Made by a program: the position numbers and the translations under genes. DNA of 38,219 nucleotides from a virus: positions 1 through 38,219 of the IMG/VR virus record IMGVR_UViG_3300004463_000540; one strand, 5' to 3'. The notes under the pieces were generated by a model. That model saw nothing but the letters and a program-made list of their open reading frames with translations. It did not search any database and was not told where the DNA came from. This document shows positions 3,351-38,219 of this stretch, one piece after another. The first letter of the stretch is position 1. Every line of letters starts with the position of its first letter.

Positions 3351-4724
3351 TCAATCAAGCTCTGTCATATTGCCACTAAAATCAAAGTCATCTGACATAC
3401 TGTAGGCACGCTTCTGTAAATCAGGATCAAGCTCAAGAGGTGGTTTATCCTCATCTAAGCGTAGTCCTAAACAACTAAGACCATACTGAAGGGCATTGAT
3501 GTTATGATCATCCTTCTTAGGGATCTTTCCTTTTTCATCTTTCTGATAGCCCTCAAGCTCACTAATTAAGTTAGGGCAGTCTGCACAGATAGTAAGAAGG
3601 CCTTTATTAAAGTGCTGTCTCACTAGGATGATATAGCCATCCACTCCAAAGTCAGACTTTGAGCTTGGCTCTAGCCACCAGGGACTGAATTCATGAATCT
3701 CATTTCTAAACCAAGCCGCTGCCTCATCGTAACCAAATCGAACACTTTTCACTAATTTCTGTAAAGGCTTTAGCTTTTCACTGACTTGAGCGTAGATCTC
3801 TCTAGCTGTCATGATGGATTGATCTTTCACGTAGAGTTCATCAAAGACGATGGTCTGCTTAGTCCACTCATTGAATAGAATAAAGACCACGCCAAAGACT
3901 GAGACTGAGGCTGGATCAAAAGCCACCATGATCTCCCACTTATTAAGATCCTTAGGGATGATCTCTTTAAAGTTAGGTCTTGGCATTTTAAAGAACTGAG
4001 GAAAGATAGAGCGTTTTGAACCCTTAACAAAGATAGCCATGTACTCTCTAAGCCATGTTTCTTCTTCGCCAATATCAATGAGTTCTTGGCGCTTGTCTTC
4101 TAGCCAAGTCTTAGAGTTGTAGTGGTTATCAAAGGAATTAGCTTGAGTCCAAAAGCCACGGGCTTTCTTTTTAAGAATCTCCATGATGTCTATGTAGTGA
4201 TTGTGAATCTCTGGAGGAGTTCCTAAGTAAAGAGCTGGAGCATCATACCTTGCGCGGTTGGGCTCCATAGCATCTAAGAAGGCTTTCTTAATATCTTTTA
4301 ATTCGTCGTATATAACTAAGCCCTTTGGTTTGATACCACGAAGAGCCTCAACGTTATCTGAGCCATCCACCTTAATAAAAGAACCGTTCGTAAAAGTGAT
4401 ACGCATTTCTGTGTTATTAACTGACTCTACCCAGTCACTAGGACCAAAGTTTTGAATACGCTGAGGAGCCCAGAGGATCTCTTTGGCCTGCTTTTGAAGT
4501 GGTTCAAAGATGTAGTTTTCACTACCCTCATTCTCCCTTGCATAGCGCCAAGAGCAGTAAGCAGCTAGATCAGTCTTACCTGAGCTACGGCCACACTGAG
4601 CCCCTAAGTCTTTCTTACCTAGATAGAATAGAGCGCGGCCAAGCGGTATTTGCCAATCAAGAGGCTGCCATCTCTCATTAAGCTCAGCTAGATCTTCAGC
4701 TAGGGAGATAAGTCCTTCACTCAT
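3351..4724 (-). CDS. terL: Terminase large subunit (packaging ATPase and nuclease)
   Basis: The protein drives DNA into the procapsid and cuts the concatemer. Visible motifs are a Walker A-type GRSSGKT at residues 45-51, a Walker B-type LVIYDE at 136-141, and a nuclease domain starting with VAFDPAS near residue 268, with further acidic residues at FGYDEAAAW and KDDHNINALQ near the C-terminus. Length (457 aa) is typical. ATG 4724 lacks a clear Shine-Dalgarno sequence; the frame is open upstream to a TGA, but no ATG/GTG/TTG start was seen there. Packaging-cluster genes are on both sides. Confidence 0.93.
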   Translation of the reverse strand: MSEGLISLAEDLAELNERWQPLDWQIPLGRALFYLGKKDLGAQCGRSSGKTDLAAYCSWRYARENEGSENYIFEPLQKQAKEILWAPQRIQNFGPSDWVESVNNTEMRITFTNGSFIKVDGSDNVEALRGIKPKGLVIYDELKDIKKAFLDAMEPNRARYDAPALYLGTPPEIHNHYIDIMEILKKKARGFWTQANSFDNHYNSKTWLEDKRQELIDIGEEETWLREYMAIFVKGSKRSIFPQFFKMPRPNFKEIIPKDLNKWEIMVAFDPASVSVFGVVFILFNEWTKQTIVFDELYVKDQSIMTAREIYAQVSEKLKPLQKLVKSVRFGYDEAAAWFRNEIHEFSPWWLEPSSKSDFGVDGYIILVRQHFNKGLLTICADCPNLISELEGYQKDEKGKIPKKDDHNINALQYGLSCLGLRLDEDKPPLELDPDLQKRAYSMSDDFDFSGNMTELD

Positions 4725-4999: not shown

Positions 5000-5116
5000 T
5001 CAGTCCCCATTACCGTGGAATTGATATGTCTCAACGAACCACTCACGGCGAGCCTCTACCTCTCGCCACATTCGCCCATATTCACTAAGAGAACGCTCTA
5101 AGTTAAAAGTAGCCAT
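5000..5116 (-). CDS. Translationally coupled 38-aa ORF
   Basis: The start ATG overlaps the phosphatase stop as TAATG, and the stop at 5000-5002 lies 3 bp beyond the stop of the plus-strand gene ending at 4996. The peptide is charged and aromatic (Arg, Glu and Trp rich, for example EYGRMWREVEARREWF). The coupling and the exact fit into the gap support a real gene, although the short length leaves doubt. Function is unknown. Confidence 0.5.
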   Translation of the reverse strand: MATFNLERSLSEYGRMWREVEARREWFVETYQFHGNGD

Positions 5117-5562
5117 TACTCACCACGCTTCATCTCAAAGCGCTTTAAGAATGGAACCCACCAGAAGTAAGGCCACATATTAAAGCCCATCTTGCGCATT
5201 TCGCGGTATGCATCTTTAAAGCTCCAGCCTTCACGTCTCATTCTGATAATAGCTGAGACCATGCCAGTTCTATCCTCGCCCTTTAGGCAGTGGATGTAGA
5301 TCAGTCCTGGTGTTGGAATAGAGTAAAGCTCATAGAATAACTCATGCCATTGGTTCATAGTGATCGGGAAGACATCACTGAGCTTTAGACTAACTACTTC
5401 AATGCCAAACTTCGTAGCACTCTCAAACTCATACTGATCGTTATGAAGAAACTCATAAACACCAGTTTGTAGTGTAATTACCTTAGTGATTCCAGCAGCT
5501 TGAAGGTCTTTAAAGGACTTAGGTCTTGGGCCACGGTAGATCTTTCCTGAGACATGATACAT
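5116..5562 (-). CDS. Dual-specificity/tyrosine phosphatase-like protein
   Basis: It is predicted to hydrolyse phospho-tyrosine or phospho-serine/threonine esters via a cysteinyl-phosphate. The signature HCxxxxxR(T/S)G is intact as HCLKGEDRTGMV, residues 91-102: C92 nucleophile, R98 phosphate binding. D63 in KLSDVF is a candidate general acid. The N-terminal YRGPRP (9-14) fits the opening strand of cysteine phosphatases (plant/bacterial DSP type). Length, 148 aa, is a minimal catalytic domain. The site AAAGGAATAACC precedes ATG 5562, 2 bp after the upstream stop. Nucleotide or phosphoinositide substrates are possible alternatives. Confidence 0.88.
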   Translation of the reverse strand: MYHVSGKIYRGPRPKSFKDLQAAGITKVITLQTGVYEFLHNDQYEFESATKFGIEVVSLKLSDVFPITMNQWHELFYELYSIPTPGLIYIHCLKGEDRTGMVSAIIRMRREGWSFKDAYREMRKMGFNMWPYFWWVPFLKRFEMKRGE

Positions 5563-11720: not shown

Positions 11721-12083
11721 ATGGCAGAATACAGAACTAACCCAAACAGCCTAAAACAGCAGGCACTAGCTTTATTCCGTAAAGGAATGAGCCTTAATGA
11801 AGCAGTCAAAGAACTTCGTAAGATGGGACTAAGACCTAAGTACAACACTGTGGCGGCTTACCAGACGATTCATCGTAAAGAGCAAGCAGCTATCGAGATT
11901 CCTGTGACTCCTAAGTGGCCAACACTGGGCGGTTCACCTGATCAGGTAGTAGCGACTGGTCTTGCTGAAAGATCTTCTTACTCTGCTTTTGAGATCATTG
12001 AGAAGATCGCAGTTTGTCCAAAACTTTTACCAAGCCAAAAATCAGTGTTTCTGAAGTTCGCAGTTGAGGCATTTAATGGCTAA
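11721..12083 (+). CDS. Putative HTH protein (120 aa)
   Basis: ATG 11721 follows TAAAGGAGAATACAA. Residues 8-52 contain ALALFRKGMSLNEAVKELRK and then a basic helix with NTVAAYQTIHRKE, resembling the recognition region of resolvase- or sigma-type HTH domains that read short motifs. The C-terminal half is helical without known features. Flanked by two Xre-like genes, it lies in a regulatory cluster directly before the conjugation operon. Confidence 0.6.
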   Translation: MAEYRTNPNSLKQQALALFRKGMSLNEAVKELRKMGLRPKYNTVAAYQTIHRKEQAAIEIPVTPKWPTLGGSPDQVVATGLAERSSYSAFEIIEKIAVCPKLLPSQKSVFLKFAVEAFNG

Positions 12084-12324
12084 AAGAAAAAAGAGCTTTG
12101 GAGGTGTTTTAAGAGACCTCAGACTTAGCTCTGATCTTTTTCAGGAAGACATTGCAAATATTTGCGAGGTCACTCCTCAGTTTATTTCAAACTGGGAATG
12201 CGGAAGATCTTATCCACCACCAGAAAGATTACAGGCTGCCTGTGATGAATATGGATGGGACTATGAGGGACTTTCAAAGCTCATCGTAAAAGAGAAGCAC
12301 GACAAGTCTAAATTTGGTTACTAA
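12076..12324 (+). CDS. Xre-family HTH regulator (82 aa)
   Basis: ATG 12076 overlaps the previous gene by 8 nt, with GAGG upstream; the ORF is open further up but lacks a site. The Xre pattern is clear: LRDLRLSSDLFQEDIANICE then VTPQFISNWECGRSYPPPERL, matching helix 2, recognition helix 3 and the conserved W-E-xG-xxxP feature. The basic N-terminus (AKRKKS) may reach the minor groove. It is the last gene before the ubiquitin-like operon and a plausible repressor of it or of the 7217 promoter. Confidence 0.85.
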   Translation: MAKRKKSFGGVLRDLRLSSDLFQEDIANICEVTPQFISNWECGRSYPPPERLQAACDEYGWDYEGLSKLIVKEKHDKSKFGY

Positions 12325-12396: not shown

Positions 12397-12442
12397 TATT
12401 ACTAAAAAACAACTAACAGGCAAAAAACAAAGGAGAATGAAA

Positions 12443-12646
12443 ATGGCAAAGGAACTAACAGTTCAAGTATCTGGTGGTGAGCGCATGGGTGGAAAAACTG
12501 CTGAGACAGTAGCAGAGCTTAAGCGTGGTTTGGATGCTTCAGTAGCAAACTACCAAGCAACCGTAAATGGTGAACCAGTAGAGGACACTCATGTTCTTTC
12601 TGACTTCGCTTTCGTTGCTTTGACTGCAAAAGTTAAAGGCGCTTAA
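12443..12646 (+). CDS. Ubiquitin-like beta-grasp modifier (67 aa)
   Basis: ATG 12443 has AAGGAGAATGAAA upstream (an ATG six bases earlier is too close to the site). Residues 4-9 form a first strand, 20-32 a helix (ETVAELKRGLDAS), and 37-46 strand-turn YQATVNGEPV, with VxNGEPV as in MoaD/ThiS/ubiquitin-like folds. The last strand FVALTAKVKGA ends the protein. The C-terminus is Gly66-Ala67, not Gly-Gly, so either this end is used directly or the JAMM protein removes Ala67. E2-, JAMM- and E1-like genes follow in the same direction, which strengthens the assignment. MoaD-like sulfur transfer is an alternative, but no MoaE, thiamin or tungsten genes are nearby. Confidence 0.8.
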   Translation: MAKELTVQVSGGERMGGKTAETVAELKRGLDASVANYQATVNGEPVEDTHVLSDFAFVALTAKVKGA

Positions 12647-12696
12647 GCGTTGAATGGGTCACTCATAGAAATATGGGTGGCCTTCTTGAACGCTTA
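12644..12696 (+). promoter_or_regulatory. Strong hairpin between modifier and E2-like genes
   Basis: TAAGCGTT (12644-12651), beginning with the stop codon of the modifier gene, pairs perfectly with AACGCTTA (12689-12696). Inside it, 12657-12666 pairs along all 10 positions with 12673-12682 (two G-U) around a 6-nt loop. The E2 ribosome-binding site starts 2-3 nt after the stem. It probably stabilises the modifier mRNA or limits read-through, giving much more modifier than enzyme. Confidence 0.7.
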
Positions 12697-12710
12697 TAAA
12701 GGAGCAAGCA

Positions 12711-14288
12711 ATGAGTGAAACTAGAACTGAGGGATGGTCATTAGACTTCGTACAAGATCATCAATCAGGACATACAAGACAAGTCTCTGGTAACGATGGG
12801 AGATTACAAGGTGATATTGATGAAACTTTAGCTAGAACTATTACTGATAGTTTTAGAGACACTGCCATTGAATACATAGCACAACACGCTGGTGTTTTTA
12901 GAGTGCCGCTTAATGAAAATGCAATAGCCCAAGCGGTTTCGGTAGCTGAGCGCGCCTCACCACCACCATTAGAGAGAATGTCTGATTTATACTCAAGCTT
13001 TGTAGCACCATCCATTGCTGGTCTCAGTGAGACTGTGGCTCGTGATGAGCGTGGTAGGTTTGCACCTAGAAGCCGCACCACTGCTGAAGCTTCTACTACC
13101 TCTAGACCTACACCTGATAACTCTGATTTAAATCTCACTAATTCTTGTTTTAGAACTGATGAAGAATTTATTAAGTACGTGAACACCATGTGCTCAGTGT
13201 TTTACGTAAGCCCTAATCACAAGGAAGTCAGAATTCTTCTCTCAAACTCTAGTGAATACTATAATTATGATAAAGGAGCGGTCAATAGCTACCTTATTGG
13301 CATAGCTAGTGAAGTAGCTCCTAGTGAGCGTGGCTTAAGAGACAGCATGGTGGCTGAGCTTGTTCGTATGAAAAGAAGAATCAACTCTAATGCAGATCTA
13401 GAGTCTTCTTATCAAAGAAACATACTCTCAGCAAAAAGCTATCTTACTGATCATAGAAGATCTATCTCAAATGCTAATCACGACTACTTAGCTTTGATCA
13501 GAGCTAAATCTAGATCCCTTGATTATGTGGCGATTGTAAAAGAGATCTTAAAAGACGAGTTCTACTCTCTACAAACCGTTGATGACACGAAAGTCTTTTT
13601 TATCACAAAACCTGTGACCATCTCTCACATCATTAGATCATCAAAAGTGGATCAGACTTGTTACATGGGTAAGTATAGAATCATGCTTGATTTTGATTCT
13701 TGTATTATCACGGTCCAGCAGTGGGAAGATAACATCATAGTCTCTGGTTGTCCTCATCCTAACGTGAATGAGAGTGGTGGCATATGCTGGGGCAATGGCA
13801 GTGTAGCAGCAGAGCAAATGAGCCAAGGGATCTTTAAACCAGCCTTTGAAGCTCTAAGATCAATTCTTACATCTTATGGCACACCTCCTTACGTTCCACT
13901 AGAGAGCTTTATCTCAGCAAGAAAGAGATTAGATATCTTTGTGAATACCACTCATAGAAAAGTGGGGAGACTTAAAGTTCAAGGTGATATTTTTTCTTTA
14001 AAATTCAACCTTAATGGTTTGACCATTCACGATAGCAGAAGCCTTGAAGTTGATCTCTTTCAAGAATTTAAAATCACTGATGATGGTATAATCTTCTCTC
14101 ATCTTGATGCTGATAAGTTCTTAATCGCTGACAATAACGCCACGTTCGTTAATGTGGATGACTTCTTTAAGGATCTAAATCTCACTCTGACAAGATCAGA
14201 GATGGTTGATCACGATCACTACTTAAACACCGTTGAGCATGATGAAGATGATGATGGTGATCATGGTGATGATTCAGATGTCTTCTGA
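12711..14288 (+). CDS. E2-like (UBC-type) conjugating enzyme fused to extra domains (525 aa)
   Basis: Proposed to carry the modifier as a thioester. The hallmark is HPN at residues 349-351 followed by GGIC, with C359 as candidate catalytic cysteine. A strand-rich region upstream (about 290-345, VFFITKPV..YRIMLDFDSCIITV) and PPYVPLESF after it (about 389-397) match the UBC core of bacterial E2-like proteins. The core lies in about 250-400. N-terminal ~230 residues are polar and contain ARDERGRFAPRS; 405-500 is a further beta-rich region; the tail is very acidic (EDDDGDHGDDSD). A normal E2 is about 150 aa, so this is far longer. AAAGGAGCAAGCA precedes ATG 12711. Confidence 0.82.
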   Translation: MSETRTEGWSLDFVQDHQSGHTRQVSGNDGRLQGDIDETLARTITDSFRDTAIEYIAQHAGVFRVPLNENAIAQAVSVAERASPPPLERMSDLYSSFVAPSIAGLSETVARDERGRFAPRSRTTAEASTTSRPTPDNSDLNLTNSCFRTDEEFIKYVNTMCSVFYVSPNHKEVRILLSNSSEYYNYDKGAVNSYLIGIASEVAPSERGLRDSMVAELVRMKRRINSNADLESSYQRNILSAKSYLTDHRRSISNANHDYLALIRAKSRSLDYVAIVKEILKDEFYSLQTVDDTKVFFITKPVTISHIIRSSKVDQTCYMGKYRIMLDFDSCIITVQQWEDNIIVSGCPHPNVNESGGICWGNGSVAAEQMSQGIFKPAFEALRSILTSYGTPPYVPLESFISARKRLDIFVNTTHRKVGRLKVQGDIFSLKFNLNGLTIHDSRSLEVDLFQEFKITDDGIIFSHLDADKFLIADNNATFVNVDDFFKDLNLTLTRSEMVDHDHYLNTVEHDEDDDGDHGDDSDVF

Positions 14289-14369
14289 AGAGGAGCCATC
14301 ACTTTTGACAACTTAGCCACTAGAATTTTGTGGGATACCGTAACAACTTAAAAGGAACAAGCAAGCAAA

Positions 14370-15380
14370 ATGGAACAACTTAAACCCACCGTTTACATCA
14401 CGCGATTAGCGCACACTAAGATCATGCACTGGATAAATATGACAAACCTCGAAGTCTCAGGCTTTGGGAAGTGTGAGTTTCACAGAGATGAAAAGAACAA
14501 ACCTTTTTTCATCGTCAGTGACGTGATCTTATTAAAACAAGAAGTGGGCGCTGCTCACACCGACATTGATCCAGCCTCATTAGGCAAAGCTCTCTTTGAG
14601 ACTAAGGACATTCCAGGAGATCTAAACTTCTGGTGGCACTCTCATGTTAATATGAATGTGTTCTGGTCAACTGTGGATAAAGACACCATCAATGAGCTAG
14701 GAGCACAAGGCTACTGCTTAGCTAGCGTCTTTAATAAAAAAGAAGAGGTTAGAACAGCTCTTAGTTTTAAAAATGATTCTAAATTTGGATCATCTCTTAG
14801 TTTTGAAGATGACCTTACTATGATCATCTATGACCCAGAGCTAGAACTACAGCGTGCGGCGTGGGATAAAGAATTTAAAGAAAAGGTGGCTGAAGAAAAA
14901 GTGATCTTTCTACCAGGCGCTCAAGGTGGTGGTTTTAGTTCAGGCTTTGATAACTCTCCAAAGCGTTGCTTAAAGATCATGCGAAGAGCGATGAATTCTT
15001 ATATGGCTCCTTTCACTGAGAATGAGGTCATTAAGATTAATAATCTCATTGAGACTTACACTAAAAACAGAACTGATCTTAAGCCCAATATCTTAGAGCT
15101 ATCAGCAATCCTAGGGCTTTACCCTTACGAGGTAGAAAAAGCCTACCCACTTCTAAATGCTTTTGAGCTAAAAAGAACTGAAGACATCATTGATCTCTTT
15201 TTAGAGACCTCTGTGGGTTTTGGTGAAGTCATTGATGCCACTAAGCCTAGGATCTCTGAAGCTGATATTGAAGCTGCTAGTATGCCTGATGAAGACGATG
15301 ATGATCCTTACTACTCAGATCCTGATGCGGCTGAGATGCAAAGACTTATGGAGCAATATAATAGAGGAGAGATTCAATAA
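14370..15380 (+). CDS. JAMM/MPN+ metalloprotease (deubiquitinase-like, 336 aa)
   Basis: A zinc isopeptidase or processing protease for the modifier. The full JAMM motif is present: E28 in LEVSGFG, then HSHVNMNVFWSTVD at residues 90-103 (H90, H92, S100, D103), i.e. HxHx7Sx2D. The catalytic domain covers about 5-160. Residues 195-275 are helical and Lys-rich, and the C-terminus is acidic (PDEDDDDPYYSDPD). The family often has only 120-200 aa, so the second half is extra. The leader AAAAGGAACAAGCAAGCAAA puts the site ~13 nt from ATG 14370, longer than usual, so translation may be weak. Coupled to the E1 gene by TAATG. Confidence 0.92.
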   Translation: MEQLKPTVYITRLAHTKIMHWINMTNLEVSGFGKCEFHRDEKNKPFFIVSDVILLKQEVGAAHTDIDPASLGKALFETKDIPGDLNFWWHSHVNMNVFWSTVDKDTINELGAQGYCLASVFNKKEEVRTALSFKNDSKFGSSLSFEDDLTMIIYDPELELQRAAWDKEFKEKVAEEKVIFLPGAQGGGFSSGFDNSPKRCLKIMRRAMNSYMAPFTENEVIKINNLIETYTKNRTDLKPNILELSAILGLYPYEVEKAYPLLNAFELKRTEDIIDLFLETSVGFGEVIDATKPRISEADIEAASMPDEDDDDPYYSDPDAAEMQRLMEQYNRGEIQ

Positions 15381-16069
15381 TGGACATCTTTACACAGTAC
15401 GCTCATTTAACCCGTCAATTAGAAGTGATCCCTGTGACCACTCTATCCACTGAGATTCATATCATCGGTGTGGGGGCTATTGGCTCTCTTGTGAGCTTAA
15501 ACTTAGCTAAGATGGGCTTTACAAAGCAAGTGGTCTATGACCCTGACGTGGTCTCTGTAGAAAACCTCTCTTGTCAGTTCTACCGTAAATCAGACATCGG
15601 AAAACCTAAGGTAGAAGCCCTTGATGATCTTATCTTTGACTTCACAGGTGAAGCCTTATGGAGCACCATTCACTCATACTGGGATGATCCCGAGGAGTGT
15701 AACACCGCTAAGATTGTGATCTGCTGCGTGGATGATATGACAGCAAGAGCTAAAATCTTTGATGAGATGAAAAACCTTTTAAATGTGGATTATTTCATCG
15801 ATGCTAGAATGAGCCTAGAAGATGCCGCTATGTACGTGATGAACCCTCATGATCCCCAAGATCAGGAGAGTTATAAGAAGACTCTTTTTTCAAACGAAGA
15901 AGGAGTGCAGGAACGTTGCACTGCTAAGAGCACGATCTACACAGCCACCATGCTTGCGGGGCTAGTGGCAAAGGCTGTAAAGAACTTGATTTGCCGTGAG
16001 GATTATCCAAGAGTGTCTTTATGGAGCATTAAGAATAACGACATCAATAGCTATAAAAAGGAGATTTAA
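15380..16069 (+). CDS. E1-like ThiF/MoeB adenylyltransferase (229 aa)
   Basis: Predicted to adenylate the modifier C-terminus with ATP and pass it on as a thioester. GVGAIG (30-35) is the nucleotide-binding Gly loop; VYDPDVVSVENLSCQF (52-67) corresponds to the DxDxVxxxNLxRQ segment, with Cys in place of the usual Arg; GKPKVEAL (74-81) supplies the ATP-contacting Lys; CCVDDMTAR (115-123) matches the conserved Asp loop. C179 in ERCTAKST is the best catalytic cysteine candidate. No CxxC zinc pairs are present; the protein is a minimal E1. The start overlaps the JAMM stop (TAATG); the end is coupled to the next gene. Confidence 0.9.
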   Translation: MDIFTQYAHLTRQLEVIPVTTLSTEIHIIGVGAIGSLVSLNLAKMGFTKQVVYDPDVVSVENLSCQFYRKSDIGKPKVEALDDLIFDFTGEALWSTIHSYWDDPEECNTAKIVICCVDDMTARAKIFDEMKNLLNVDYFIDARMSLEDAAMYVMNPHDPQDQESYKKTLFSNEEGVQERCTAKSTIYTATMLAGLVAKAVKNLICREDYPRVSLWSIKNNDINSYKKEI

Positions 16070-16269
16070 TGGCTAAAAAAAATATGAATACTCTTAGCAT
16101 GAAGGTATCTGCGAGTGAAGGCCTTACAGAAGAGGTTAACATCGCAAACATCAAAGAAGTTCTAAAGTACGTATCCCTCATGGTTTATGAAGATGAAGAG
16201 TACATCAGTATTCTTTTTAATAACGGTGAGAAAATTTATAAGAAAAGACAAAAAGAATTTAGTAAGTAG
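16069..16269 (+). CDS. Small protein coupled to the E1-like gene (66 aa)
   Basis: ATG 16069 shares its A with the E1 stop (TAATG), with AAAGGAGATT before it. The protein has strands (TLSMKVSAS) at residues 8-16, a helix (NIKEVLKYVSLMV) and a basic C-terminus (KIYKKRQKEFSK). Tight coupling makes it a likely part of the conjugation system, for instance a substrate adaptor or regulator. No family was recognised. Confidence 0.65.
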   Translation: MAKKNMNTLSMKVSASEGLTEEVNIANIKEVLKYVSLMVYEDEEYISILFNNGEKIYKKRQKEFSK

Positions 16270-18975: not shown

Positions 18976-19187
18976 ATGCAGGCCTACTCAATATCATCCA
19001 AAAACAAAATGAAGAGATTGAAGATCTTAAGTTAAAACTTGAGTTCAAAGAAGAGCTTGTTAAATTAGCAAGACTTGAAAGAGATGAAGCGATGAAAAGA
19101 AGTAAGTCATCAAATGGTTTTGCAGAGCGATTTGAAGATTTTTATAAAGAATTTGGAAAAGAGTTCTTCGAAAAGGAGAAAAAATGA
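18972..19187 (+). CDS. Small coiled-coil protein (71 aa)
   Basis: ATG 18972 overlaps the previous stop (ATGA), with AAAGGAAAGAT before it. Residues 8-45 are a coiled coil (QNEEIEDLKLKLEFKEELVK), and the C-terminus is Phe/Glu/Lys-rich. It is coupled to the Gp157-like gene next in the operon, so it may belong to the recombination module. Function unknown. Confidence 0.65.
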   Translation: MNAGLLNIIQKQNEEIEDLKLKLEFKEELVKLARLERDEAMKRSKSSNGFAERFEDFYKEFGKEFFEKEKK

Positions 19188-19693
19188 ACCTACTACAAAT
19201 GGTTGATGAGCATAACACCATCATCAGATCACTCATTGAAAACGGCGGGGTTATCTCTCCAGAGATGGAGGAGAAGCTCTCAACACTCGATGTCTCTCTT
19301 CCAGATAAGATTGATTCTTATTATCACATCCTTGGAAAGCTCGCTTTAGAGCATGAGTACTGGAAAGAAAAAGCCGATGCTCTTTATGCTGTGGCTAAGG
19401 GCTGCATCACGGCTCAGACTTTTATCAAAGAGAGATTAAAGTTTGCAGCAAGTTCCCTTAGTGTTGACGAACTAAAAGGGGTTGATTATCGTTTTAAAAT
19501 CCAAAACGGTAAAAAGGTTTTAAAAGTAGATCGTGAGAAACTCCCAGAGAGTTATTATGAAGAGATCACTCATAAAGAAAAGGTTTTAAAAGAGCTTTTG
19601 ATTTATGAAGAGATCAATGCTGGAAAGACCATTGAAGGAGCAGAGCTTGTCACCACTAGAATCATCAAGTCCTATGTCAATAAACGCGCCTAA
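19184..19693 (+). CDS. Gp157-like protein of recombination modules (169 aa)
   Basis: ATG 19184 follows AAAAGGAGAAAAA and overlaps the previous stop. An N-terminal helical half (IISPEMEEKLSTLDVS like the start of Siphovirus Gp157) is followed by helix KADALYAVAKGC and a C-terminal module VDREKLPESYYEE..., as in the family end segment D/E-xx-x-LPxEYx. Gp157-family genes commonly lie beside single-strand annealing proteins, as here. The biochemical role of the family is not firmly known. Confidence 0.75.
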   Translation: MNLLQMVDEHNTIIRSLIENGGVISPEMEEKLSTLDVSLPDKIDSYYHILGKLALEHEYWKEKADALYAVAKGCITAQTFIKERLKFAASSLSVDELKGVDYRFKIQNGKKVLKVDREKLPESYYEEITHKEKVLKELLIYEEINAGKTIEGAELVTTRIIKSYVNKRA

Positions 19694-20306
19694 GATTTAT
19701 CAGGCTATCTCTGCTATCATGGGAGAAATTGGAGTGGTGGGTAAGACCACTAGAGCCCAAGGTCTTCCTTATAGCTTTAGATCTGCTGATGACATCATTA
19801 ACGTGATCTCTCCCTTGTTGGTGAAGTACAAGGTCTGCATTTTTCCTCGAGAGGTTGAATCAATCTCAGAGATGTTTCATAACTCAGCAGGAAAGCAAAT
19901 CACCAGAGTCTCTAAAAAGATGGAATATAAGTTTGTAAGCACTGAGGATGGCTCAAGTGAAACGGTTTGTATGGGCGGTGAAGGGCTTGATTTTAGCGAT
20001 AAGGCCTCTAGTAAGGCTCAGACCATGGCTTTTAAGTACATGTTTGCTGAGACCTTTGCGATTGCCACTGAAGATCCTGATCCAGATTCTGAGCGTCCAG
20101 AGGTTGGTGAGATTAACCCTGGTGAGCACATCATCAATTTTGGTAAGTCTCTAAAGAATAAGAAAATCAAAGACGTTCCAATTCAAGACCTTGATTCTTA
20201 TGCTGACTGGTTAGAATCTAGTGCTAATAAAAAAGGTGAGAAGGTGAGTGGTGACGCTAAGACCTTCATCGATATGGTAGCGTTATTTAAAAAGGAGAAG
20301 GCATAA
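19674..20306 (+). CDS. ERF-like single-strand annealing protein (210 aa)
   Basis: Promotes annealing of complementary DNA strands in phage recombination and circularisation. Residues 5-30 (IYQAISAIMGEIGVVGKTTR) and GLPYSFRSADDIINVISPLL match the ERF N-terminal pattern, and KASSKAQTMAFKYMFAETFAI the core with its hydrophobic FKYMFxETF stretch. The C-terminal INFGKSLKNKKIKDVP...YADWL resembles the small PFGKYKGKxLxDVPxxYLxWL domain of ExoX-like/DUF3820 proteins. ATG 19674 (20-nt overlap) is preferred to 19605, which would overlap the previous gene by 89 nt. Confidence 0.82.
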   Translation: MSINAPKIYQAISAIMGEIGVVGKTTRAQGLPYSFRSADDIINVISPLLVKYKVCIFPREVESISEMFHNSAGKQITRVSKKMEYKFVSTEDGSSETVCMGGEGLDFSDKASSKAQTMAFKYMFAETFAIATEDPDPDSERPEVGEINPGEHIINFGKSLKNKKIKDVPIQDLDSYADWLESSANKKGEKVSGDAKTFIDMVALFKKEKA

Positions 20307-37328: not shown

Positions 37329-38219
37329 TTATAGATCACCGAAAAAAAGTGGCTCTTTTGAGTTACGATTAGGAAGATCCTTCTTCCCAGTCTTAAACTC
37401 TGTGTCCTGTTTTACTTTTTCTTGGATTTTGTTTTGTGTCTTCTTTGCTCCGTAAAGCTCAGAGATCATATCTGAGATATCTTCCTTAGTAAGACCTTGA
37501 GCATGGCTCATATCTACTAAGCGACCGATGATCGCAGCTCTTTTATCAGCAGGAACTTGAGTAGTGCTCATTGCTTCTTCAGCATGATTCCACAACTGTT
37601 CTTTTTGATAAAACTCTAATACTTTTTTGGGAGTGATTTGATCTCTGGATTTGATTCCATCTACTTCGAGTTTACCTTCATCAGCAGCTTCTGCTAGGGC
37701 TCCGTAGGTGTTCCAAAAATCTTCATCTTTGACACTGTGACTTGCTAATAAGCCTGTGATCTCTTTTAAGGTTTTCTCCTGAGAGGCCTTAGTTTCAATC
37801 TCGGTCTTATAAGTTTCACTCTGAGTTTTGAGGTACTTATTCTCCTCTTCGAGAAGATAAGACTTCTTATCCTCCTCACTCATTGAATACCATTTTTCTA
37901 GAAGCTCCATGTTATCGTCAAGATAAAACTTCTTGAACTGGACGGGATTTACTCCAGCCACTTCAGCCATCTTCCAAAGACGTTGGTTAGGATCTTTCTC
38001 TTCAAAGGCAGCTTTGATTTTAGCTTGGACTGAGTTGTACTTACCTTCAAAGTCCTTTGATTTACGATCCACTTCTTGGAACTTTTTATCCCACGCTACT
38101 TTGCCAGAATAGTTATTGATGATCTCTCTTGCGGTTACTTGTTCTGGTTTGCCATTAATAGTAACTGTGAATAGAGCATCTTCATCAATATCAGCCTCTG
38201 CTTCCCCAGCTTTGTACTT
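37329..38219 (-). CDS. Scaffold-like protein, C-terminal part (gene crosses the contig ends)
   Basis: Continues the frame from 1-361; after removing the 52-bp duplicate the whole protein is about 399 aa. This part, 279 codons up to base 38167, has a short beta segment (FTVTINGKPEQVTAREI) right at the join, then helical, charged sequence with coiled-coil character (EEENKYLKTQSETYKTEIETK) and a basic end (KTGKKDLPNRNSKE). The C-terminal basic helix is where scaffolds such as that of P22 contact the capsid. A start at 38072 would give only the C-terminal 247 aa and lacks support. Confidence 0.75.
   Translation of the reverse strand, partial: KYKAGEAEADIDEDALFTVTINGKPEQVTAREIINNYSGKVAWDKKFQEVDRKSKDFEGKYNSVQAKIKAAFEEKDPNQRLWKMAEVAGVNPVQFKKFYLDDNMELLEKWYSMSEEDKKSYLLEEENKYLKTQSETYKTEIETKASQEKTLKEITGLLASHSVKDEDFWNTYGALAEAADEGKLEVDGIKSRDQITPKKVLEFYQKEQLWNHAEEAMSTTQVPADKRAAIIGRLVDMSHAQGLTKEDISDMISELYGAKKTQNKIQEKVKQDTEFKTGKKDLPNRNSKEPLFFGDL
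38168..38219. repeat. Terminal direct repeat, right copy
   Basis: Identical to bases 1-52. See the left copy; it should be removed once when the genome is circularised. Confidence 0.9.

Follow-up and report, generated by a model that had tools for sequence, protein, structure and literature searches.

The window analysed here comprises all 38,219 bases of IMG/VR virus record IMGVR_UViG_3300004463_000540, which is classed as linear. It carries an exact 52-bp terminal repeat (positions 1-52 and 38168-38219), and its ends, when joined, meet inside a gene, with an order as in the relative L119. Based on the repeat and the L119-like joined ends, the window probably represents an entire phage genome in closed form, about 38.17 kb long. 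Its portal, terminase and capsid genes, all encoded on the minus strand, identify the owner as a tailed phage. Neither the tRNA search nor the Rfam search of the window gave a match.

Directly downstream of a helix-turn-helix gene, which is possibly their control gene, the plus strand carries four consecutive genes for a ubiquitin-like (Ubl) modifier, an E2-like conjugating enzyme, a JAMM/MPN metalloprotease and an E1/ThiF-type activating enzyme (Table 1). The initial annotation had assigned the respective hallmark motifs to these genes, and all of them are found at the positions it gave. That is, the 67-aa modifier, described as ending in GA, closes with Gly66-Ala67-stop, the HPN...GGIC motif with C359 of the E2 is present as H349-P-N...C359, and the JAMM motif is indeed full (E28, H90, H92, S100, D103). 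The TAATG overlaps it had listed exist both at the JAMM/E1 and at the E1/66-aa gene junction. Only the cysteine of the E1 has to be corrected, since the invariant residue is C180 rather than C179. For the modifier, an alternative in-frame ATG at 12437 would give a protein of 69 aa. A search for relatives of the 66-aa protein found none. The Gp157/ERF recombination genes lie downstream of the cassette on the same strand and in the same genome arm, and the structural genes are located in the opposite arm. On the minus strand, a weak dual-specificity phosphatase match (window 5116-5562) marks a possible second protein-modifying enzyme.

Table 1. Features of the window and inserts in the JAMM genes of related loci (inserts are given in the coordinates of the respective locus).
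Feature	Position	Strand	Remarks
Helix-turn-helix regulator, directly 5' of cassette	12064..12324	+	Pfam HTH_31 1.1e-7
Ubl modifier, 67 aa	12443..12646	+	ends Gly66-Ala67-stop (...AKVKGA*); Gly66 codon 12638-12640
E2-like conjugating enzyme, 525 aa	12711..14288	+	H349-P-N...C359; acidic C-terminal tail; no assignment for the N-terminal ~250 residues
UBC-type domain of E2	13515..13958	+	HPN 13755-13763; putative catalytic Cys359 codon 13785-13787
JAMM/MPN metalloprotease, 336 aa	14370..15380	+	HSHx7SxxD 14637-14678; Glu28
E1/ThiF-type activating enzyme, 229 aa	15380..16069	+	GVGAIG; invariant Cys180 codon 15917-15919
66-aa protein, translationally coupled to E1 by TAATG	16069..16269	+	
Gp157 and ERF recombinase	19184..20306	+	Pfam 7.6e-15 and 4.4e-17
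JAMM-gene insert, L029	5544-6593		
JAMM-gene insert, L030	6100-6392		
JAMM-gene insert, L079	5481-6665		
JAMM-gene insert, L033	5460-6640		
JAMM-gene insert, L042	5920-7022		

A single-sequence scan with the window E1 returned no viral relatives, and tblastn of the JAMM protein against phages gave no match; viral E1 relatives were found by the E1 profile alone. The respective scan of IMG/VR provided 108 relatives, from which the best 80 were kept. Together with 8 annotated phage loci and the window, this results in 89 E1 loci, a few of which are near-duplicates. The initial annotation had proposed to look for the same cassette in related phages, and the complete Ubl-E2-JAMM-E1 order is found in 75/89 loci. 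In another 5/89, the order is the same and the JAMM gene is interrupted by an insert; among the loci with neither arrangement, 5 have their E1 near the end of a contig. Among the named carriers are the cultured crAss-like phages crAss001 and DAC15, furthermore DAC17, the PhiCrAssBcn series, Flavobacterium Fpv phages and Xanthomonas jumbo phages. A conserved protein of about 250 aa follows the E1 in crAss-type cassettes (L003 5642-6316 and 44 similar loci); no family was matched in a Pfam scan of this gene, and its product is a candidate fifth component.

Relatives are also found in bacterial MAGs, i.e., the system is not exclusively viral. Among them, a 1.16-Mb contig of Candidatus Saccharibacteria seemingly contains a full set of Ubl, JAMM, E1 and putative E2 (L115 5094-8675). 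Two Methylomirabilota MAG contigs (L110, 8668-8901; L111, 1658-1891) encode an E2-E1 pair without JAMM, and the accompanying modifier ends in IRGG, a terminus reminiscent of ubiquitin.

At the level of sequence, the relationships of the JAMM and E1 proteins are statistically strong. The JAMM family profile matches Rpn11/PSMD14 (1.3e-14) as well as JAMM1, CSN5, AMSH and BubCD. E28, H90, H92, S100 and D103 are invariant in the JAMM alignment, such that the window protein has the Glu plus HxHx7SxxD that mark JAMM/MPN+ metalloproteases. The inserts of the five split JAMM genes are located at the HSH...SxxD active-site codons, as expected of a constrained gene, and at least three of them (L029, L030, L079) are group I introns according to Rfam. 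For the E1, Pfam reports ThiF for the window protein (E=9.8e-23), and the profile matches Uba1 (1e-22), ThiF (3e-20) and BubCD. It thus has an adenylation domain with a conserved cysteine, since Cys180 is invariant in both E1 alignments.

The fold of the E2 is the least secure link, because its matches are consistent but individually weak. A Pfam scan of the window E2 gave no match. When searching the PDB by sequence, 59/60 best matches are E2 enzymes, each with a weak E-value between 0.04 and 0.3, and the catalytic cysteine is in register in the one alignment displayed. An AlphaFold2 model of 13380-13973 (pLDDT 82) shows a UBC-like order of secondary structure; its Foldseek comparison lists E2s for all 19/19 best matches, none of which is significant alone (E>=0.05, TM<=0.53). 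H349, P350, C359 and G361 are invariant across 13 E2 relatives, and H349, C359 and G361 remain so in an alignment of 38 E2s that includes the crAss-type proteins. The relatives differ in their C-terminal part. Cys-rich tails that are RING- or zinc-ribbon-like are found in L010, L011, L012, L023, L027, L043, L056 and L006, and at least four CxxC motifs are present in seven E2s, none of which is of the crAss type. The Cys-rich tails are possibly built-in ligases. The window E2 is without a Cys-rich tail.

The modifier had been described as a beta-grasp protein, and structure prediction supports this. Its AlphaFold2 model (pLDDT 85.7) has the beta-grasp order of elements, and Foldseek relates it to MTH1743 (3.8e-4), MoaD/ThiS-like proteins, ISG15 and archaeal ubiquitin. 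The profile agrees, with SAMP2 in complex with JAMM1 as best PDB match (6.7e-4) followed by MoaD, and the window modifier is also matched by the HMM of the crAss-type Ubl proteins (7e-4). The C-terminal glycine typical of such modifiers is present as Gly66, with one residue beyond it.

Taken together, the four genes very likely form a complete phage-encoded cascade of ubiquitin-like conjugation and deconjugation. The proposal of the initial annotation, a phage-encoded ubiquitin-like pathway, best accounts for the four proteins and for their relatives. Given the conserved catalytic residues, which are present for all four steps, and the association of the genes, we infer the following chemistry. 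The JAMM protease would cut off Ala67 to expose Gly66 of the modifier. The E1 would then use ATP to adenylate Gly66 and subsequently hold the modifier on Cys180 as a thioester, from where it would be handed to Cys359 of the E2. The E2 would join the modifier to target proteins, and the JAMM protease could also detach it from them again.

The termini of the modifiers allow for an evaluation of the proposed maturation step. In JAMM-containing cassettes, the modifier shows a K-x-(S/K)-G-type site, after which come either one to five further residues or a long extension, and only 5/80 of these modifiers end in G. In the JAMM-less cassettes L006, L028, L105 and L110/L111, on the other hand, the neighbouring Ubl ends exactly in -GG, a terminus that is found for only 0.36% of ORFs. 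A final G is thus seen in 4/4 JAMM-less lineages vs. 5/80 JAMM-containing cassettes (Fisher 6.5e-5, with partly related rows). This covariation of JAMM absence and -GG ending over four lineages is what maturation by JAMM predicts and thus supports the mechanism. L049 breaks the rule, i.e., it has a JAMM gene and yet its putative Ubl ends in -GG, such that JAMM may also serve for removal only. In L107, the modifier relative (3618-3938) ends in KTKNA without the conserved glycine, and the other cassette genes are present.

We also compared the cassette with known ubiquitin-like systems. The initial annotation had equated its gene order with that of the bacterial Bil operon (modifier, E2, protease, E1); the orders are equal indeed, and that of plasmid PRTRC is likewise the same. 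Beside the order, BilABCD shares the maturation of the modifier by the JAMM protease, which is predicted here. In contrast, BilA has two Ubl domains, BilB is an E2 with a CEHH motif, and BilD has an inactive adenylation domain besides the active one, plus a Cys domain (PMC11354881). The phage modifier is a single Ubl domain of 67 aa, its E2 has the HPN upstream of Cys359 and lacks the CEHH spacing in the residues after it, and the E1 is a single adenylation domain of 229 aa without the inactive adenylation and Cys domains. Furthermore, Bil is a bacterial operon while the cassette is owned by a phage. Membership in Bil is therefore rejected based on the single Ubl, the HPN-type E2 and the minimal E1; by analogy, the cassette would work like Bil, but it is not Bil.

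The PRTRC system, a ParB-related and ThiF-related cassette, is operon type 6d of Iyer et al. 2006 (PMC1779556). It resembles the phage cassette in the relative order Ubl-E2-JAB-E1, in its standalone minimal E1 and in its mobile-element setting. The PRTRC E2, however, is without the upstream histidine and uses a conserved downstream His instead (PMC1779556), whereas the phage E2s have an upstream HPN/HPH with invariant H349. PRTRC also carries ParB, protein E and the helical protein F, while there is no further gene between the phage Ubl and E1; the genes directly upstream of the window cassette encode HTH proteins or are unassigned, and ParB, E and F are missing. The window E2 reaches only E-values of 0.04-0.15 against PRTRC_B, i.e., far below the cut-off. 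When comparing profiles, the phage Ubl shows no similarity to PRTRC_C, the phage JAMM aligns with PRTRC_A at most at the active-site motif, and the phage E2 aligns with PRTRC_B only at the Cys-Gly motif. The E1 tree places the PRTRC proteins in a clade (100/99) on a long branch; its separation from most of the phage E1s is modestly supported (84/68), and the branches are long. As none of the defining features except the gene order is shared, we also rejected membership in PRTRC.

Bacterial Bub, as represented by the Citrobacter BubCD structures, is matched by the JAMM and E1 profiles, but there JAMM and E1 are fused while they are separate genes here. Type II CBASS with Cap2/Cap3 has E1, E2 and JAB-type activities as well. 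In this system, Cap2 combines E2 and E1 in one fusion and is tied to a CD-NTase, in contrast to the separate E1 and E2 genes of the phage. Among solved structures, the archaeal SAMP2 is the modifier closest to that of the phage, and its partner JAMM1 is a protease related to the phage JAMM; unlike the phage cassette, this pathway is chromosomal, and it is not known to include an E2. Finally, the lambda tail proteins I and K are phage proteins with Ubl and JAB domains from a tail-assembly operon with NlpC/P60 (PMC1779556). There is no E1 or E2 in the lambda case. A lambda-type tail Ubl/JAB identity was rejected. A phage-encoded cascade was not found in the openly licensed literature that we searched. 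A jumbo-phage survey that shares authors with the 2006 bacterial ubiquitin paper refers to ubiquitin only with regard to eukaryotic viruses and in the title of a reference.

With regard to the role of the cascade, the gene neighbourhood is informative. Outside the crAss group, neighbouring genes encode DnaB, Toprim, gyrase/topoisomerase, PolIII, SSB and ERF, while primase, uracil-DNA glycosylase and exonuclease are found next to crAss cassettes. Such replication and recombination neighbours make targets within the infected cell slightly more plausible than a modification of the tail, and this gene context suggests that the cassette acts during replication. Among the matches listed, the E1 carriers overlap to a large extent with the records whose primase is close to the one of cr111_1, and distant crAss families were not seen among the E1 matches listed. 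Going by these listings, the cassette seems to belong to the core genes of one crAss family. For the lineage of the window, five long relatives that share TerL and capsid are without E1 and JAMM (the E1 search had positive controls), which renders the cassette accessory there. In pairs of related cassettes, dN/dS is mostly <1 for all four genes, i.e., they are mostly under purifying selection, and the E2 is the fastest-changing of the four in nearly all pairs compared. We tentatively propose that the cascade works inside the infected cell while replication is under way, with host or phage proteins as its targets.

A somewhat doubtful alternative is host takeover or counter-defence, where the same chemistry would serve to inactivate or redirect host proteins by tagging them, comparable to the use of ADP-ribosylation by other phages. 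A fast-changing E2 is what one would expect of an enzyme confronted with varying host targets, the cassette is missing from the five long fragments with the window's TerL and capsid genes, and the RING-like E2 tails of some relatives could bind varied targets. This reading has to be set against the crAss-like cassette, which is fixed beside replication genes across many genera, unlike typical accessory counter-defence. Unlikely, in our assessment, is that the phage modifies its own virion or replication proteins for assembly or timing. The associated DnaB, Toprim, topoisomerase, PolIII, SSB, ERF and primase genes agree with it, as does the plasmid PRTRC with its identical gene order, which accompanies ParB, but the cassette is placed in the arm opposite to the structural genes. 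We consider it quite improbable that the cassette excludes competing phages, i.e., that it is a Bil-like weapon tagging incoming or assembling rival virions: although gene order and types of steps are those of Bil and the cassette is accessory in the window's lineage, no tested protein feature makes it a Bil member, it is replication-linked and apparently core in crAss-like phages, and no other defence genes were noticed next to it in the window. A sulfur-carrier or cofactor pathway (ThiS/ThiF-like), as implied by the E1's place within the ThiF superfamily and by the 'thiamine biosynthesis' annotation of the E1 of crAss001 and Fpv phages, is highly improbable and this annotation is rejected, since complete cassettes always include E2-like and JAMM proteins, ThiF/MoeB equivalog scores are far below the cut-offs, and no thiamine or molybdopterin genes were seen nearby.

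Bacterial ubiquitin-like operons are known as anti-phage defences. Complete phage-encoded cascades beside replication genes would reverse this picture, and the same formerly unrecognised cassette is widespread in phages, including the abundant crAss-like phages of the human gut. Bacterial viruses thus probably operate a type of signalling that used to be regarded as characteristic of eukaryotes. On balance, we lean towards the view that phages of many lineages, among them the Steigviridae, a cultured crAss-like family, regularly use Ubl signalling of their own during infection; in several lineages, the E2 has a fused RING-like zinc module as a possible built-in ligase. In that case, the system would be viral, with an offensive or regulatory purpose, and not a bacterial defence. 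The reading also offers a function for genes of the abundant human gut viruses that are currently labelled as thiamine biosynthesis or hypothetical, and research into how eukaryotic ubiquitination arose gains many prokaryotic E2s of the HPN type. Since the cassette is present in cultivated phages (crAss001, DAC15, Fpv), the role of bacterial-type ubiquitin systems is directly testable.
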